Source of the DNA: a virus
DNA length: 29,707 nt
IMG/VR virus record: IMGVR_UViG_3300045738_000428
Coordinates: 1 to 29,707 of that record
Direction: 5' to 3' (one strand)
Shown here one piece after another: positions 2,223 through 10,402 of this stretch; the first letter of the stretch is position 1; the number at the start of each line of letters is the position of its first letter. The position numbers were made by a program, and so were the translations under genes. The notes under the pieces are model-generated. The model saw only the letters and a list, made by a program, of their open reading frames with translations, made no database searches and had not been told where the DNA came from.

Positions 2223-2427
2223 AATTATGTAATTCACATAAAGTCCTCCATATTATATTTACACAGCTAACACAGCTAGTATTTGGCTTGTACCTAGTAC
2301 CAAATATATCATTATGTAGCCTTACCATAGCATTAGTAGTAGAGAGGTTATCTGATTGCCCTGTTTTTATCTTAGGATATATCTCTAGTAGTAGGGCCCT
2401 CTGTTCTATTGTTAGTTTTACATTCAT
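2203..2427 (-). CDS. Hypothetical 74-aa protein with CxxC
   Basis: A small helical-looking protein (MNVKLTIEQRALLLEIYPKI... ending HNYEQDKE) containing a CVSC pair and a later cysteine in IIWRTLCELHN. The family is not recognised. The first 20 residues resemble an N-terminal helix of small phage regulatory proteins, but this is weak. Its start overlaps the stop of the zinc-ribbon-like gene by 4 bases, so it is part of the same translationally coupled run. Confidence 0.6.
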   Translation of the reverse strand: MNVKLTIEQRALLLEIYPKIKTGQSDNLSTTNAMVRLHNDIFGTRYKPNTSCVSCVNIIWRTLCELHNYEQDKE

Positions 2428-2666
2428 TTATACCATTTATCTCTAGGGCAGCCCTCAGACCTCCATTTAGCTTTCTCCCTTACAGGGCATCCACACTCAT
2501 TACAATGCTCCCAGGGTTTTGGGGTTTTATCTAGATGTATACAGCTCATACAGGTAAATATTCTTAATTTATACTCTCTTTTACTAACTTTTCTAAATCT
2601 ATCTAGTATATGCTTTACTAGGGCCCAAAGAAACCTTAGTAAAAACTTAACCCTAGCCCTCCTCAT
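2424..2666 (-). CDS. Zinc-ribbon-like small phage protein (80 aa)
   Basis: The first ~30 residues are basic and hydrophobic (FLLRFLWALVKHILDRF) and could be an amphipathic helix. The C-terminal half has four or five metal-type cysteines (CMSC at 39-42, HCNECGC, then EGCPRDKW), a pattern common in small phage proteins with a rubredoxin-like zinc knuckle. It overlaps both neighbours (14 bases with the sigma-like gene and 4 with the 74-aa gene). Metal binding is likely; its target is unknown. Confidence 0.65.
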   Translation of the reverse strand: MRRARVKFLLRFLWALVKHILDRFRKVSKREYKLRIFTCMSCIHLDKTPKPWEHCNECGCPVREKAKWRSEGCPRDKWYK

Positions 2667-3207
2667 TTATCCTCTCCTCCTCTAGCCTTTTTTTTATATA
2701 TTTCTTTACTCTCTTAATAGTCTTAAATATACTAGTCCTGGAGATACCTGTTTGCTCAGCTAACCCATGTAAGGTATTAGGCTGGTAATAGTAGAGCTTA
2801 AATATCTCTCTATCGTACCAGTATATCTCATCTATAATTTTATCTATCTTATCTAGTTGTTTCCAGGTGGATGTTTGGCCATTATATACTATATCTGCTA
2901 TCTGGTCGGCTGTTATATTGCCATTTATTAGGGTGTAATACTTTTTATACTTGTAGTAGTATCTAGAGGTGCTAGATTTTAACATTAGGGTAAGGGCTCT
3001 AATACAGTACCATAATAAATCCCCTCTATCATAAATTGCCTTTAGTTTATTATCCTCTTTTTCAAATAGAGATACCATAAGCTCCTGAAATGCATCATCT
3101 CCAGCTGTTTTATTTCCAGCTATATTATGAGCTATTTCTTTTAGTTTCTCTATTGAGCCTAATATAGCATCATATACATCTGTTTCCTTATCAGAAAGGC
3201 AGCCCAC
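2653..3207 (-). CDS. Sigma-70-like / ECF-type transcription factor
   Basis: A 184-aa protein with a sigma-factor layout. The N-terminal helical part (DDAFQELMVSLFEKEDNKL...GDLLWYCIRAL) resembles region 2. The C-terminal part (YDREIFKLYYYQPNTLHGLA, then EQTGISRTSIFKTIKRVKKYI) resembles a region 4 helix-turn-helix. Proteins like this are common in Bacteroidota phages and probably redirect host RNA polymerase to phage promoters. The start is a GTG at 3207, 17 bases inside the previous gene; no better ATG lies upstream in frame. The DNA-binding role is strongly suggested, while the sigma role is inferred. Confidence 0.65.
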   Translation of the reverse strand: MGCLSDKETDVYDAILGSIEKLKEIAHNIAGNKTAGDDAFQELMVSLFEKEDNKLKAIYDRGDLLWYCIRALTLMLKSSTSRYYYKYKKYYTLINGNITADQIADIVYNGQTSTWKQLDKIDKIIDEIYWYDREIFKLYYYQPNTLHGLAEQTGISRTSIFKTIKRVKKYIKKRLEEERINEEG

Positions 3208-3424
3208 TCTCTTTATTATCCTCTAGGGGCTCCTTTTTTACATAAGGGGCTGATATTTTGCTACTAAAGTACTTTTTACCCTCACTCTCTCTAACCCATA
3301 GGGCTATATCCTGTATTGTTCCATCCTGGAGGGCTATTTTTCCTTTATAATCTGGGTAATTTTCGCTAGGTTTATCATCTACCTTAAAGATAGTGCCAGT
3401 ACCTGGTTTGTGTTCATAGGCCAT
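3191..3424 (-). CDS. Small ssDNA-binding-like protein with SSB-type tail
   Basis: A 77-aa protein (ATG at 3424 is preferred over an upstream in-frame start because MAYEHKPGTG fits a widespread phage protein start). The body (GTIFKVDDKPSENYPDYKGK, then beta-rich IALWVRESEGKKYFSSKIS) resembles small OB-like phage proteins. The C-terminus ends in DNKESGLPF, close to the acidic DDLPF-type tail by which SSB proteins recruit partners. It sits among replication and recombination genes, which fits single-strand binding, but the fold is not proven from sequence alone. Confidence 0.55.
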   Translation of the reverse strand: MAYEHKPGTGTIFKVDDKPSENYPDYKGKIALQDGTIQDIALWVRESEGKKYFSSKISAPYVKKEPLEDNKESGLPF

Positions 3425-3512
3425 AGTATAAAATTTTCTGCAATAATACAGCAATTATACATAGAAATATAAAAACAGCTTTAGTAGTTTTTAACAGGGG
3501 GGTGTTTATATC

Positions 3513-3917
3513 TTAGATATACCAATCATCTCTACTAGTATTGTAGACTATTATATATCCTTTACTAGTACCTGACCATGTTTTAGTAGCTTTTATCCTG
3601 TATACATAGCAATCCTCCTCTAGTAAGGCATCCATAAAGGCCTTTATTAGATTATCTATATCTGGTTTTTGTTGATGAGGGGTAAAGGACATACTAGAGG
3701 CTTTCTTTTTACTCCAGCTCTTAGGTATAGGGATAAAAAATTCTATATTTAGAGTACTACCAGGAGAGTACCCCTGCTCTTTAGCCTGTAGCACCAGTAC
3801 TCTTTTATATTCCCAGTATCTTAGTACTACTGGCCTTTTTTTCCAGCTATCAGCTCTAGTCATTCTAGGTTTACCCATAGGGGTTATTTCAAAAGAATGT
3901 TTTTTTAGTGTTTTCAT
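3513..3917 (-). CDS. rusA: RusA-like Holliday junction resolvase
   Basis: A 134-aa endonuclease that cuts four-way DNA junctions during phage recombination and packaging. The hallmark KPDIDNLIKAFMDAL block is at residues 84-98 with its catalytic aspartates, preceded by the FEITPMGKPRMTRADSW beta strand and basic patch and by IPIPKSWSKKK. Length is normal for RusA. It overlaps the DnaB stop by 4 bases. After its TAA the same frame stays open for 32 hydrophobic codons without an ATG (see findings). Confidence 0.9.
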   Translation of the reverse strand: MKTLKKHSFEITPMGKPRMTRADSWKKRPVVLRYWEYKRVLVLQAKEQGYSPGSTLNIEFFIPIPKSWSKKKASSMSFTPHQQKPDIDNLIKAFMDALLEEDCYVYRIKATKTWSGTSKGYIIVYNTSRDDWYI

Positions 3918-5227
3918 AATCCAAAATTTTCATTAGTATTATCGGTAAATTTACATAATTCTCCTCTAAATGTAATATCTACACTACCAGTCTCTCCATG
4001 CCTATTTTTTGCTAGTAGTACCTTACATGATAAATTATTAGAGTTTTTATTATAGTAGGCCTCCCTGTAAATAAATATTACCTGGTCGGCATCCTGCTCA
4101 ATAGCTCCACTCTCTCTCAAATCAGATAGCATAGGGGTTTTATCAGCTCTACTCTCTACAGCCCTACTAAGCTGAGATACGCATATTACAGGCAGCTCTA
4201 GCTCTTTAGCTAGTACCTTTAGTTGCCTGGAGATATATGCTATTTGCTGCTCCCTGTTTTGCTGCTTATTTTGCCTATCCTGGCCCTGTATTAGTTGTAT
4301 ATAATCTACTACTATCATGCTCAGTTTATTCTCATGGTTAAGTTTTCTAGAGATGGTCCTGAGTTGGTATACATCTAGGGCCGCACTATCATCAATTATT
4401 ATATTACCTCCGTTTACTATAGGAGATATATCTGTATGTGTTTGCCTCCACTCCTCATCTGTTAATTTACCCCTTTTTAATCTATCATGGTCTATTTCAG
4501 ATAGGGAGCTTATGAGCTTATACCCTATTTCTGTGGCCCCCATTTCTATGCTAAATAATAAGGTCCTATACCCATTTAAGGCTGCAGTAGTCATGAAATT
4601 TAATGCTAGAGTAGTTTTACCCATCCCTGGCCTGGCTGCTAGTATTATGAGCTCCCCTGGGTTAAATCCATTATTGAGCCTATCTAAATACCTAAACCCT
4701 GTAGGTATACCAGTAATAGAGCTTGTACTAGTACTAGCTTTCTCTATGGCTTTTAGGCTGTTATGTATTACCTCAGATATATCATAGTAGCTCCTAGCCT
4801 TAGCATGCCTACTAATAGTATCAGTAAGTTTAGATAACCCAGAAAGTACATCAAATACATCAACCTCCCTATCATATACCTTATCTATCATCCTATGAGC
4901 CTGTAGTAGCTCTCTCCTCATCTGGTACTCCTTTAGTATAAAACAATGCTCCTCTATATTTAGTGAGTTGCTACTAGTAATATCTAGTATATTATCTAGG
5001 GATACTTTGCCTTTAAGGGCCTCAGATACAGAAATTATATCTGGGGTTTTACCTTTATTATATAGCTCAATACATGTAGTGTATATTTTAGAGTTACTAT
5101 TAGTATAAAAACAATCCCTATTAAGTAGGTCGGCTATTATATGTAGGTCATCTATACTGGTCATAGCTGCACTTAGTACAGCGTTTTCTATTTCTGGGGC
5201 TGTTAATTCTGCTGGGTTATATTTCAA
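3914..5227 (-). CDS. dnaB: Replicative DNA helicase (DnaB family)
   Basis: A 437-aa hexameric 5'-3' helicase that would drive phage DNA replication. The N-terminal DnaB domain (ENAVLSAAM...LLNRDCFYTNSNSKIY) is followed by the RecA-like motor: Walker A ARPGMGKTT at 198-206, Walker B MIVVDYIQL around 304-312, SQLSR at 351-355 and the conserved SDLRESGAIEQDAD at 368-381. Length is normal for the family. It overlaps the initiator-like gene upstream and RusA downstream by 4 bases each. Confidence 0.95.
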   Translation of the reverse strand: MKYNPAELTAPEIENAVLSAAMTSIDDLHIIADLLNRDCFYTNSNSKIYTTCIELYNKGKTPDIISVSEALKGKVSLDNILDITSSNSLNIEEHCFILKEYQMRRELLQAHRMIDKVYDREVDVFDVLSGLSKLTDTISRHAKARSYYDISEVIHNSLKAIEKASTSTSSITGIPTGFRYLDRLNNGFNPGELIILAARPGMGKTTLALNFMTTAALNGYRTLLFSIEMGATEIGYKLISSLSEIDHDRLKRGKLTDEEWRQTHTDISPIVNGGNIIIDDSAALDVYQLRTISRKLNHENKLSMIVVDYIQLIQGQDRQNKQQNREQQIAYISRQLKVLAKELELPVICVSQLSRAVESRADKTPMLSDLRESGAIEQDADQVIFIYREAYYNKNSNNLSCKVLLAKNRHGETGSVDITFRGELCKFTDNTNENFGL

Positions 5228-6900: not shown

Positions 6901-7172
6901 GATATTACACCCTTATTAGTCGGCTGGGATTTTTGCCTGGTTATTATATAATTGTATAATTCTCCTCCACACTCCTCATCCTCATCTACTAGATTTTCCT
7001 CTACTAGTATAGAGCTATCTACCATTATACTCCTTAGCATAGATTGTAGATTTTCTACTGGTATTTGCCTCCAGTATCCAAATCTTAATGTAATTCCAGC
7101 TAGATGGTTACCTACCTCAAAGGTACCAAATTCTTCCTCTAGGAGGATGAGATGATTTATATGTATTCTCAT
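6897..7172 (-). CDS. Hypothetical 91-aa acidic protein
   Basis: Unrecognised. It starts MRIHINHLILLEEEFGTFEV, with a GITLRFGYWRQIPVENLQSM core and an acidic stretch (EENLVDEDEECGGELYNYI). A beta-rich N-terminus followed by an acidic helix is the only structure visible. It is coupled by 4-base overlaps to the annealing protein and the preceding gene, so it is probably made in similar amounts. Confidence 0.6.
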   Translation of the reverse strand: MRIHINHLILLEEEFGTFEVGNHLAGITLRFGYWRQIPVENLQSMLRSIMVDSSILVEENLVDEDEECGGELYNYIITRQKSQPTNKGVIS

Positions 7173-7444
7173 AGCTGTTTTATGTATTTAATTGCATACT
7201 TTTTTAGGTCCTTTGTATTTATCCACCTTAGGAGCTCTATAGTAGATAGTGTTAGTACAAATTCTATACCACCCTCATCAGAGCCTATTAGAGTAGTTTC
7301 ATCCGTTTTTGCATCTGTCCACATAGTATTTATACTATACAATTCTTTATAGATAGTTTTATCCTTTTTTTTGCATTTACATGCAGCCTTACAGGCCTCA
7401 GCTTTTTGCTGGTCCTCCATATATAATTCCTTTGATTTTCCCAT
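7169..7444 (-). CDS. Hypothetical 91-aa Cys/Lys-rich protein
   Basis: Unrecognised. The N-terminus is a charged helix with a cysteine cluster (EACKAACKCKKKDK) that could bind metal. The C-terminal half (IEFVLTLSTIELLRWINTKD) looks like an alpha/beta core. It begins two bases after the stop of the 165-aa gene and overlaps the next gene by 4 bases. No function can be assigned. Confidence 0.6.
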   Translation of the reverse strand: MGKSKELYMEDQQKAEACKAACKCKKKDKTIYKELYSINTMWTDAKTDETTLIGSDEGGIEFVLTLSTIELLRWINTKDLKKYAIKYIKQL

Positions 7445-8157: not shown

Positions 8158-8544
8158 CTATTTATTTAATTGGTTAGTAATGTTTTGCCTATACTTTTCT
8201 ATACTAATAATACTGGTCATAGCTTTTCTTAGCATAGTAGCACAATCATCATACCCTCTAGCACTTTCTCCATAAATTAGGCTCCACTTCTGGTCATGCT
8301 CAGTAGCATTAGATTTAAGCTCTACCTCCTTAGTATAAAATTTATGAGCTATATTTTCCATAATAGTAGCCTGTAGGTTTATTTCAGTTTCTACATGGGC
8401 TGCTCTAAAGGTTTTAATCCCCTCTAATCTAGCCTCCCTTTCTGTATCAGTACTAACTTTAGATGCAGAGGCATCTAATCTAGCCACCTCTTTTTGTAGC
8501 TCCTCTATACTCTTAGGAGCCCTTACTAGTTCATTTTTGTTCAT
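8158..8544 (-). CDS. Hypothetical 128-aa helical protein downstream of ribozyme 2
   Basis: Unrecognised, with charged helical composition (EELQKEVARLDASASKVSTD, then ...MENIAHKFYTKEVELKSNATE). It probably forms coiled coils. Its start lies 25 bases downstream of the predicted hammerhead-2 cleavage site, so its mRNA would begin with a short 5'-OH leader UAUUAUUAACCAAAAAA. This mirrors the arrangement of the 67-aa gene behind hammerhead 1. Confidence 0.65.
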   Translation of the reverse strand: MNKNELVRAPKSIEELQKEVARLDASASKVSTDTEREARLEGIKTFRAAHVETEINLQATIMENIAHKFYTKEVELKSNATEHDQKWSLIYGESARGYDDCATMLRKAMTSIISIEKYRQNITNQLNK

Positions 8545-8562
8545 GATAACAATTTTTTGGTT

Positions 8563-8642
8563 AATAATAGACCAGGGGTATATTCAGCAGCTCCCACCAC
8601 ATTCCCCCCTAGTTTCGGCCTTTAGGCCTCATCAGTATTATT
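8563..8642 (-). ncRNA. Hammerhead ribozyme 2 (type I, long stem III loop)
   Basis: Read on the minus strand from 8642: stem I 5' strand AAUAAUA; core CUGAUGA (8635-8629); stem II GGCC-UAAA-GGCC; GAAA (8616-8613); stem III ACUAGGGG pairing with CCCCUGGU (8 bp, one U-G wobble) around a 27-nt loop; then GUC with cleavage expected after C at 8570; then stem I 3' strand UAUUAUU (7 bp). All core nucleotides of the hammerhead are intact. Stem I is open, which makes it type I. The 5' part is also the last codons (N-N-T-D-E-A-stop) of the 67-aa gene, with the stop codon inside loop II. Activity is predicted, not shown. Confidence 0.9.
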
Positions 8643-8825
8643 CTCTGGCAAATATTTTCCAGCTAGCACATTATAATTTTGCATTATAACTAAGCATTGT
8701 TCTTTACTAAGGCCTGCTAACCCCCCTACTAATGATACATTCATCATATTAGTAATCCCAGACCTCTGTACCTCTACATAGCTTTCAAATTGCTCCCTAG
8801 TAATTGGTTTAGTGATAAATTCCAT
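8622..8825 (-). CDS. 67-aa protein bracketed by two hammerhead ribozymes
   Basis: Unrecognised family. It begins MEFITKPITREQFESYVEVQ, with a middle section MNVSLVGGLAGLSKEQCLVI and the end LPENNTDEA. It may be a small helical protein with a conserved-looking GGLAGLSKEQC loop. Predicted cleavage by the two ribozymes (between 8850 and 8849, and between 8570 and 8569) would excise a 280-nt RNA carrying only this gene. Its last six codons and stop are written in the ribozyme 2 core, so termination and ribozyme folding compete for the same bases. Confidence 0.7.
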   Translation of the reverse strand: MEFITKPITREQFESYVEVQRSGITNMMNVSLVGGLAGLSKEQCLVIMQNYNVLAGKYLPENNTDEA

Positions 8826-8841
8826 GATTAAAATTTTTGGT

Positions 8842-8900
8842 TAATAATAGACCAGGTTGCTATACCTGGTTTCGGCCTTTAGGCCTCATCAGTATTATTA
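8842..8900 (-). ncRNA. Hammerhead ribozyme 1 (compact type I)
   Basis: Read on the minus strand from 8900: stem I 5' strand UAAUAAUA; core CUGAUGA (8892-8886); stem II GGCC-UAAA-GGCC; GAAA (8873-8870); stem III ACCAGGU pairing perfectly with ACCUGGU around a 6-nt loop; GUC with cleavage expected after C at 8850; then stem I 3' strand UAUUAUUA, an 8-bp perfect match. Every invariant core base is present and all three stems are complete within 59 nt. The stop codon of the 63-aa gene overlaps the first three bases of stem I. Cleavage would leave a 24-nt leader before the ATG at 8825. Confidence 0.95.
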
Positions 8901-9089
8901 GTGTACAATCTGAGGCCAGTACCTTAGTACCTCAACCTCTATAGGCATTGTAATACCTTTTGAGGATAGCCCTGAGCCAGGTATTATAGCACTACCATTA
9001 GAGCCCCATACAGGGGTACCCATATCAAAAAATATCTTTTGAGCTAGGTACTCCCTGTAGGTTGCTTTATTCATTGTAAATTTTTTCAT
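8898..9089 (-). CDS. Hypothetical 63-aa protein
   Basis: Unrecognised: MKKFTMNKATYREYLAQKIF, then a Gly/Ser-rich PVWGSNGSAIIPGSGLSSKG and EVEVLRYWPQIVH. Its ATG overlaps the ArdC stop (ATGA), so it is coupled to the antirestriction gene. Its TAA is the first triplet of hammerhead 1 stem I, placing the ribozyme immediately behind the reading frame. Confidence 0.65.
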   Translation of the reverse strand: MKKFTMNKATYREYLAQKIFFDMGTPVWGSNGSAIIPGSGLSSKGITMPIEVEVLRYWPQIVH

Positions 9090-10402
9090 GATTTTGGTAT
9101 TATATCATCAGATAAAAAGCTATTAGCCTTTTTATTAGGCTCATAGTAGGCATGAAATTCTCCTGCATGTAAAAATACAGGGTTTTTACCATTATCATCA
9201 GCCCATTTAGGCTCCTCATTTTCATTATAAACCTTTACTAGTTTATGTTCCACCCCTGCTACCATTATACTAGTCTTAAATACCCTCCCCTCTCCTATTA
9301 GCTCTCCTAGACCAGATGTACCCTCTTTAATAGGCTCCTGGTGTGCTTTTTCAGCTTTCAGTTTTTCCCCTGATAAACATTGGTGTATTGGCTTTGAGGC
9401 CTTTTTAGGAGCTTTTGGCTCCTGCTTAGGCTTGCTGCTTAGAATATGTTTTACGGCTTTCTCAGCACAGCTGGAGGCCTGCAGTACCCATTTCTCCTCA
9501 GCCTCTAATTTTTTAATCCAGCCATTTATATATGCTTGTGAATTTGTTTCGCTATCAGTAGGCTCTATTCTAGTAACAGCTGATAAAAATAGAGAGCCTA
9601 TTTCAGCTACTAGCTCCTCAAAACTATAATCTTTACTACCAAAATAAGCTGTAGCCTCAGTAATACCTTTTCTGTTTAGCCTGCTTTTATGCCCTGTAGA
9701 ATGTATTAGCTCATGGTATAAAGTTTTATAGTAATCATCCTTAGTAGTAAATGCAGCTTGTTTAGGCATGTTTACCTCATCAGTACTAGGTCGGTAAAGT
9801 GCCTGTGTACCTTTAACCTTTAATGCTGGTCTACTAGGGTAGTCCTTATATACGCATTCAGCATTAGATAGAGGGGTATACAGGCTACTAGTAATATTCT
9901 TAATAGATTTTACTTTAAGGCCCTCACATTGAGCTATATTAAATACTCTGTAGTATCTAGGGCTCCAGTTATCTCTTACTGCTGCATCATCCTTTTTATA
10001 ACCAGCTTTATTAAGAGCTTTCTCTGAATTGTACCATTTACCATCTGCAAAATAAGATACTAGCCAAAAAATTACATTAGTACCATGCTCTCCTTTAATG
10101 ATATTGCCTCCAGCCTCAGTACATTGTTTGTAGGTTACAAAATGAGGTGTATCCCAGCTGTTTTTTCTCATTTTATAAGAGAGCATAAGAGTATTATAAT
10201 TAGTATATGCTCTACCTGTTTTGTAGTTTACAGGTACAATAAAATCCCCCTTTTTAGTAGTCCAGGGCTTAAACCAATTAAGGCCCTCATCCTTTAGGCC
10301 CTCAATTACATTTTCAGTAATTACTTTGTAAACGCTTTTTGTTGCTTTACTAGTGTTTTTTGTTGCTTTACTAGTTTCCGAGATGTTTTTTGTGTTTTTC
10401 AT
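9086..10402 (-). CDS. ardC: ArdC-like antirestriction protein with zincin domain
   Basis: A 438-aa protein. Residues ~20-160 match the ArdC ssDNA-binding N-terminal domain (TENVIEGLKDEGLNWFKPW, YTNYNTLMLSY, FVTYKQCTEAGGNIIKGEHG, FNIAQCEG). Residues ~200-330 are a metallopeptidase-like domain with HELIH at 230-234, a STGHKSRLNRK loop and the third metal ligand in EELVAEIGS (262-270). ArdC proteins shield incoming DNA from host restriction. A Lys/Pro linker and an extra ~100-residue C-terminal region (GRVFKTSIMVAGVEHKLVKV) follow. The first residues carry a 7-aa repeat (TSKATKN/S). It is the first gene after the promoter gap, so it is probably expressed very early. Confidence 0.9.
   Translation of the reverse strand: MKNTKNISETSKATKNTSKATKSVYKVITENVIEGLKDEGLNWFKPWTTKKGDFIVPVNYKTGRAYTNYNTLMLSYKMRKNSWDTPHFVTYKQCTEAGGNIIKGEHGTNVIFWLVSYFADGKWYNSEKALNKAGYKKDDAAVRDNWSPRYYRVFNIAQCEGLKVKSIKNITSSLYTPLSNAECVYKDYPSRPALKVKGTQALYRPSTDEVNMPKQAAFTTKDDYYKTLYHELIHSTGHKSRLNRKGITEATAYFGSKDYSFEELVAEIGSLFLSAVTRIEPTDSETNSQAYINGWIKKLEAEEKWVLQASSCAEKAVKHILSSKPKQEPKAPKKASKPIHQCLSGEKLKAEKAHQEPIKEGTSGLGELIGEGRVFKTSIMVAGVEHKLVKVYNENEEPKWADDNGKNPVFLHAGEFHAYYEPNKKANSFLSDDIIPKS
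10336..10375 (-). repeat. Two-copy 21-bp tandem repeat in the ardC start
   Basis: A 19-base unit, TTTTTGTTGCTTTACTAGT on the plus strand, occurs at 10336-10354 and again at 10357-10375 with a 21-base period. It is in frame, giving the repeated peptide TSKATK(N/S) near the ArdC N-terminus. It is probably a slippage duplication in an unstructured leader. Confidence 0.8.

Follow-up and report, generated by a model that had tools for sequence, protein, structure and literature searches.

Two predicted type I hammerhead ribozymes around a single small gene of a phage genome, and the placement of similar ribozymes in environmental phages

The window, which here means the whole stretch of DNA analysed (29,707 nucleotides, positions 1 to 29,707 of IMG/VR record IMGVR_UViG_3300045738_000428), is a virus record of 29.7 kb identified as a phage by its matches to portal, terminase, DnaB-like helicase and tape-measure proteins. 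The best named match of its portal is Nonlabens phage P12024S, which makes a host among the Bacteroidota probable. The virus is probably a siphophage of Bacteroidota type. An operon on the minus strand, probably an early one, holds two hammerhead ribozymes (HHR1 and HHR2) in the order ArdC-like gene, 63-aa gene, HHR1, 67-aa gene, HHR2, 128-aa gene. Its features are as follows.

9086..10402, minus strand: ArdC-like anti-restriction protein (ArdcN plus zincin-like metallopeptidase; PF08401, E 2.4e-22; PF18818, E 2.3e-32; phrog_7245), conserved as the neighbour on the upstream side
8898..9089, minus strand: 63-aa ORF upstream of HHR1; HHR1 stem I opens with its stop TAA (8900-8898)
8842..8900, minus strand: HHR1, type I hammerhead ribozyme, from sequence, fold, descriptor and independent covariance model
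8849..8850, minus strand: predicted cleavage site 1, GUC/U, at position 17 of the hammerhead core
8826..8849, minus strand: 24-nt A/U-rich leader that would precede the 67-aa ORF after cleavage 1 (UAUUAUUAACCAAAAA...AUG)
8622..8825, minus strand: 67-aa ORF between HHR1 and HHR2; its stop codon (8624-8622) lies within loop II of HHR2
8563..8642, minus strand: HHR2, type I hammerhead ribozyme, from sequence, fold, descriptor and independent covariance model
8569..8570, minus strand: predicted cleavage site 2, GUC/U, from sequence and comparison of copies
8545..8569, minus strand: 25-nt leader that would precede the 128-aa ORF after cleavage 2
8158..8544, minus strand: 128-aa ORF downstream of HHR2; a homologue lies downstream of HHR2 in the relative L005 (42-50% identity)

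The 67-aa protein is weakly DUF5049-like and has distant homologues in Prevotella Lak phages (36-43% identity, E about 1e-4). Single-query searches of viral_contigs returned no close relatives of the 67-aa or the 128-aa protein, and no ArdC relatives were found in genome_contigs.

Hammerheads are recognised by a CUGANGA ... GAAA core and an NUH cleavage triplet (not G at position 17), and those of type I have three helices round the core, with stems II and III closed and stem I open. CUGAUGA, GAAA and GUC are present in both elements of the window, together with the helices of type I. In HHR1, stem I pairs 8900-8893 with 8849-8842 (8 bp), the core comprises CUGAUGA at 8892-8886 and GAA at 8873-8871, stem II is GGCC-UAAA-GGCC at 8885-8874, and stem III pairs 8870-8864 with 8857-8851 (7 bp, 6-nt loop). 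HHR2 has an identical stem II, CUGAUGA at 8635-8629, a stem I of 7 bp (8642-8636 with 8569-8563) and a stem III of 8 bp (8613-8606 with 8578-8571) closed by a 27-nt loop; the leader that follows it is nearly the same as the one after HHR1. The preliminary description of this DNA, which had placed two complete minus-strand type I hammerheads around the 67-aa ORF, was right to the base. Its predicted cuts at 8850/8849 and 8570/8569 each fall at a GUC/U, and the coordinates likewise agree with the prediction that a 280-nt RNA would be set free with the 67-aa gene as its sole gene. Natural hammerheads are accelerated at cellular magnesium by a contact between loop II and stem I. Stem I of HHR1 (8 bp) and of HHR2 (7 bp) consists of A-U pairs only, with no internal loop evident by eye; since such a contact is not apparent here, activity could be weak, and activity at cellular magnesium is uncertain.

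The minimum-free-energy fold reproduces the type I architecture for HHR1 (-19.3 kcal/mol, z -3.3) as well as for HHR2 (-24.2 kcal/mol), although the z of -0.9 for HHR2 is not better than shuffled sequence because of its 27-nt stem III loop. A strict hammerhead descriptor finds two motifs in the window with 19 paired positions each, against 0.075 motifs per window in first-order Markov sequences of the same composition and 0.005 when at least 16 paired positions are demanded. A third look-alike at 9756-9790, inside the ArdC ORF, was rejected as it has UAAA in place of the required GAAA. A search with the Rfam hammerhead models had been proposed in the preliminary description. The Rfam 15 scan of the window returned no match at gathering scores, and the best sub-threshold hammerhead matches were to RAGATH-1-hammerhead (26.6 of 56.3 bits) and HH9 (21.6 of 52 bits). 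The window ribozymes share the core and the three-stem plan with Hammerhead_1 (RF00163), Hammerhead_HH9 (RF02275) and RAGATH-1-hammerhead (RF03152) but score below the gathering scores of these families, a gathering score being a threshold and not a defining chemical feature. An independent covariance model, trained on 20 aligned type I hammerheads from unrelated contigs of other phages only, detects HHR1 with 54.6 bits (E 1.3e-15) and HHR2 with 46.9 bits (E 4.7e-13), and has no third match anywhere in the window. The training copies contain 104 double-changed cells versus 30 in shuffles, and a covariation score of 0.885 versus 0.213; as these copies were picked by a pairing-demanding descriptor, their 100% pairing follows from the selection, whereas the double changes and the spread of pair types do not. 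A scan of 34 survey loci (see below) at Rfam gathering scores reported just one hammerhead. Most phage type I hammerheads therefore escape Rfam at its gathering scores, and a model of 20 sequences recovers them.

One close relative, L005, was reached through its ArdC-like gene (59% identity). The L005 contig and the window are collinear along almost all of the genome at about 60% protein identity, and the order in L005 is ArdC, HHR1, a 160-aa gene, HHR2 and the homologue of the 128-aa gene, both ribozymes being of type I. The proteins encoded between the ribozymes, of 67 aa in the window and 160 aa in L005, show no similarity when compared. The ribozyme stems of L005 differ from those of the window yet are fully paired, and the core is kept at both junctions; core loss in close relatives that retain the flanking genes had been put forward as a test, and its outcome in this closest relative supports conservation. 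Hence, as read from these sequences, the ribozyme pair is kept while the gene between differs, and the middle gene appears as a replaceable passenger. Among more distant ArdC contigs, L021 and L022 have one hammerhead each, and L024 (/G010) has two, which enclose a 212-aa gene immediately upstream of its ArdC gene, so that two same-strand hammerheads around one phage gene occur in the window, in L005 and in L024/G010. The covariance model finds the same loci in the relatives as the descriptor, with the exception of L005 HHR2, whose long loops are missed, and gives two extra weak matches (22.4 and 20.8 bits). Across the eight copies from the window, L005, L021, L022 and L024, the GUC triplet is present in 8/8, and all copies are paired at stem I positions 1-6 with up to three pair types at each. 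The hammerhead helices are maintained by covariation among homologues. The descriptor found no hammerhead near the homologue of the 67-aa gene in the Lak phages, and therefore ribozyme and gene do not travel together. In Nonlabens phage P12024S, neither the descriptor nor the covariance model finds a hammerhead.

At the ArdC junction, a hammerhead is absent from the relatives L018/L019, L020 and L025. GC-rich hairpins are seen there by eye in L020 and L025, and a GC hairpin lies at the junction of L022. In L018, the gap from the stop of the ArdC-like gene to the start that follows, a place at which relatives carry a hammerhead, holds an RNA (3590-3685, the same as L019 2668-2763) predicted to fold as a three-way junction whose outer stem has 10 bp (MFE -44.3 kcal/mol, z -8.0). 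It has no credible Rfam match as a known ribozyme at E up to 10 and is considered a candidate new structured RNA or ribozyme. The ArdC-bearing contig L025, which is without hammerheads, repeats a hairpin (AAACAATCA.AGAGGGGGGAGTATTTCCC) after successive stops at 6935-6985 and 7245-7290.

The position of the ribozymes relative to the flanking genes is regular. Cut and AUG are 19-27 nt apart in all eight copies from the window and the four relatives, and the cut is always 3' of the upstream stop codon. The stop itself may lie in stem I (window HHR1, the first L005 copy and L021), in loop II (window HHR2), in stem II (the second L005 copy), in the CUGA core (the first L024 copy) or a few bases before the ribozyme (L022 and the second L024 copy). 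In the first of two surveys of other phages, which gave 84 distinct type I elements among the matches listed, all 80 scorable upstream stops end 5' of the cut, and the stop is inside the ribozyme in 47 of the 84.

These surveys were two stem II pattern scans of the IMG/VR viral_contigs, in which at least 120 and at least 119 contig stretches matched; the GGCC pattern, given a slightly wider gap, matched only 22 stretches in 257 Gb of genome contigs. Among the matches listed, 79 and 78 loci (157) were read, and the descriptor found 148 and 113 hammerheads in them, mostly of type I and some of type III. Additional hammerheads scored at the seed loci were all on the strand of the seed (101/101, with 0 opposite, among the matches listed), and 97 of the 101 lay within 2.5 kb of the seed copy, the value for a shuffled sample of the second survey being 0.33. 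The ribozyme ends at most 60 nt upstream of an ORF start in 106/144 cases (74%) and 78/107 cases (73%), versus 13% and 16% for random positions; like all figures of the surveys, these hold only given a hammerhead seed, take in near-identical contigs and rest on ATG-only ORFs. The hammerheads of the surveyed loci thus repeat on a single strand, frequently as tandem copies, and each precedes a small ORF at short distance. Several of the surveyed contigs (L258, L110, L050 and L212) are related to the window's phage, and four queries from array loci found no named isolate with a hammerhead array by DNA similarity. A CCCTATTCCT-CTGATGA element in L056, L065, L090, L097, L099 and L119 satisfies the descriptor; since it looks like a different RNA, it was excluded from later counts. 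It has a conserved, superficially hammerhead-like CCCTATTCCT-CTGATGAGCTCACC...GGTTTAGGGTCAGGAAT followed by a terminator-like hairpin, and has no Rfam match in L056 and L119.

In one contig different ribozymes are mixed. L104 (IMGVR_UViG_3300030102_003384) carries at 2399-5010 seven ribozymes in one operon, namely four pistol and three type I hammerhead ribozymes. The pistols score above the Rfam gathering score, and the hammerheads alternate with them before successive small genes with similar leaders. The occurrence of both classes in the same role suggests that self-cleavage is a shared, selected function and that selection in this array acts on cleavage itself.

The two ribozymes of the window are likely functional type I hammerheads that cut the early operon co-transcriptionally into one-gene mRNAs with short leaders. 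Both are at gene-gene junctions, with the upstream stop in or just before the ribozyme. The polycistronic transcript would be cut 3' of this stop as it is made, and leaders of 24 and 25 nt would precede the next AUG; given a stop before the cut and a short leader before the AUG, the products are probably one-gene mRNAs with neither reading frame damaged. The upstream piece would end in the hairpins of stems II and III and carry a 2',3'-cyclic phosphate at its 3' terminus, while the downstream piece would have a 5'-OH and an A/U-rich leader beginning with the 3' strand of stem I only. From the structure, covariation, conservation and stop/start position described above, we infer cleavage in the cell and its use in uncoupling neighbouring mRNAs in expression and stability. 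Besides the all-A-U stem I and the z of HHR2, two points stand against this reading: the 5' half of HHR2 would be covered by a ribosome finishing the 67-aa gene, and some ArdC relatives (L018/L019, L020 and L025) do without a junction hammerhead.

Stem I shared between neighbouring ribozymes raises another use of the cuts. The 280-nt RNA, with the 5' end UAUUAUUA, could rebuild stem I of HHR2 with 7 bp, as could the corresponding RNA of L024 with 6 bp, and it might then religate into a circular mRNA, or the outer pieces might be joined. The ends are compatible in 30/44 neighbouring pairs of phage hammerheads; stem I is compatible in 55% of within-locus pairs versus 10% between phages, and still in 53% within a locus once divergence has reached both stem II and stem III. 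Stem II itself is no more alike within than between phages. Against this, the closest relative L005 has 0 bp, and 13/44 pairs can form 3 bp or fewer. In eight of the eight pairs in which one stem I strand has changed, all from one phage group, the strand of the mRNA leader is the fixed one, and leaders are more alike within than between phages (0.49 versus 0.35). Because the leader strand is fixed and the leaders are alike, a shared leader explains the same data as ligation-competent ends, and a common 5' leader is the simplest reading of a stem I shared within a phage. Moreover, spliced or circular products were sought by Perreault et al. and none was found (PMC3088659). The circularisation suggested in the preliminary description is accordingly weakened: the ends can re-pair in the window but not in L005, the published search found no circles, and ligation of either kind appears unlikely. 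By eye, the leader of L102 and L122 could fold after cleavage as a 5'-terminal hairpin (GAGTA...TACTC), and stem I and this hairpin may be alternative folds.

The replaced middle gene also invites an explanation at the level of DNA, in which the ribozyme with its leader is a repeated module that serves mainly the exchange of small accessory genes through recombination between the repeats, and RNA cleavage is secondary. HHR1 and HHR2 are indeed 97% identical over 35 nt and 96% over 26 nt, and the gene between the ribozymes differs among collinear genomes. However, the two ribozymes of L005 are too dissimilar for ready recombination while every core base and pair is kept, and in the arrays stems II and III diverge with pairing kept, whereas recombination alone needs no pairing; we regard such a module as improbable. 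It is very unlikely that the main value lies in the stem II and III hairpins that stay with the upstream mRNA and would stand in for a terminator-like hairpin, for which speak the type I topology, which puts both hairpins on the upstream piece, and the other structured RNAs at the ArdC junction (the three-way junction of L018 and the hairpins of L022, L020 and L025), but against which type III hammerheads, with hairpins on the downstream piece, occupy the same positions in other phages and exact catalytic cores would not be needed. The cutting of the operon into one-gene mRNAs may finally be extended to a wider and highly speculative proposal, for which we hold out little expectation: in many phages nearly every early-operon gene would have its own self-cleaving leader, hammerhead or pistol interchangeably, a stem I common to the phage would allow religation into circular or recombined mRNAs, and the ribozyme-bounded slot would be an exchange site for small anti-host genes.

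The window pair belongs to a known kind, the phage hammerheads flanking single genes. Perreault et al. (2011) described hammerheads that flank single genes or short blocks in prophages on many occasions and proposed single-gene mRNAs or circles as the outcome; three of the arrays cleave in vitro and one in cells, and a triple array flanks ardA, another anti-restriction gene (PMC3088659). With these occasions and more than 100 further contigs found here, the view of the preliminary description that tandem hammerheads around a single small phage gene look unusual is not supported. The window resembles those prophage clusters in having several same-strand hammerheads that flank a single gene; it differs in that both are of type I, the phage is of Bacteroidota type and the neighbour is ardC-like rather than ardA (PMC3088659). 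The window pair is, in addition, conserved in a collinear relative with the middle gene replaced, and its cleavage is a prediction from sequence, whereas three of the Perreault arrays cleave in vitro. As summarised in a 2023 paper, gene-associated ribozymes of the self-cleaving kind in bacteria and phages are enriched near other ribozymes and phage genes, with different classes at similar places (PMC10085705), and the alternation of hammerhead and pistol in L104 is similar to these gene-associated ribozymes. There the emphasis is on Mu-like phages and no reason is offered, while the present set has a regular stop-to-start position. Likewise, eukaryotic retrozymes and tandem-hammerhead circular RNAs have direct hammerhead repeats round a short segment, as does the window, where the released ends can re-pair; unlike them, the window has a coding gene inside and no retroelement features were seen in it, and its end compatibility is not conserved in L005.

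Relative to the literature searched, three things are new: the conserved pair round a gene that is replaced in a collinear relative, the regular layout of stop, cut, leader and start counted across many phages, and the finding that phage type I hammerheads go unseen at Rfam gathering scores. The reason for the gene associations of phage hammerheads was still called open in a 2017 review (PMC6155905) and in the 2023 paper (PMC10085705). A layout of stop, cut, leader of about 19-32 nt and start, in which the ribozyme may be a hammerhead or a pistol and the middle gene is replaceable, offers a simple test on defined operons, and this test bears on why phages carry hammerheads.
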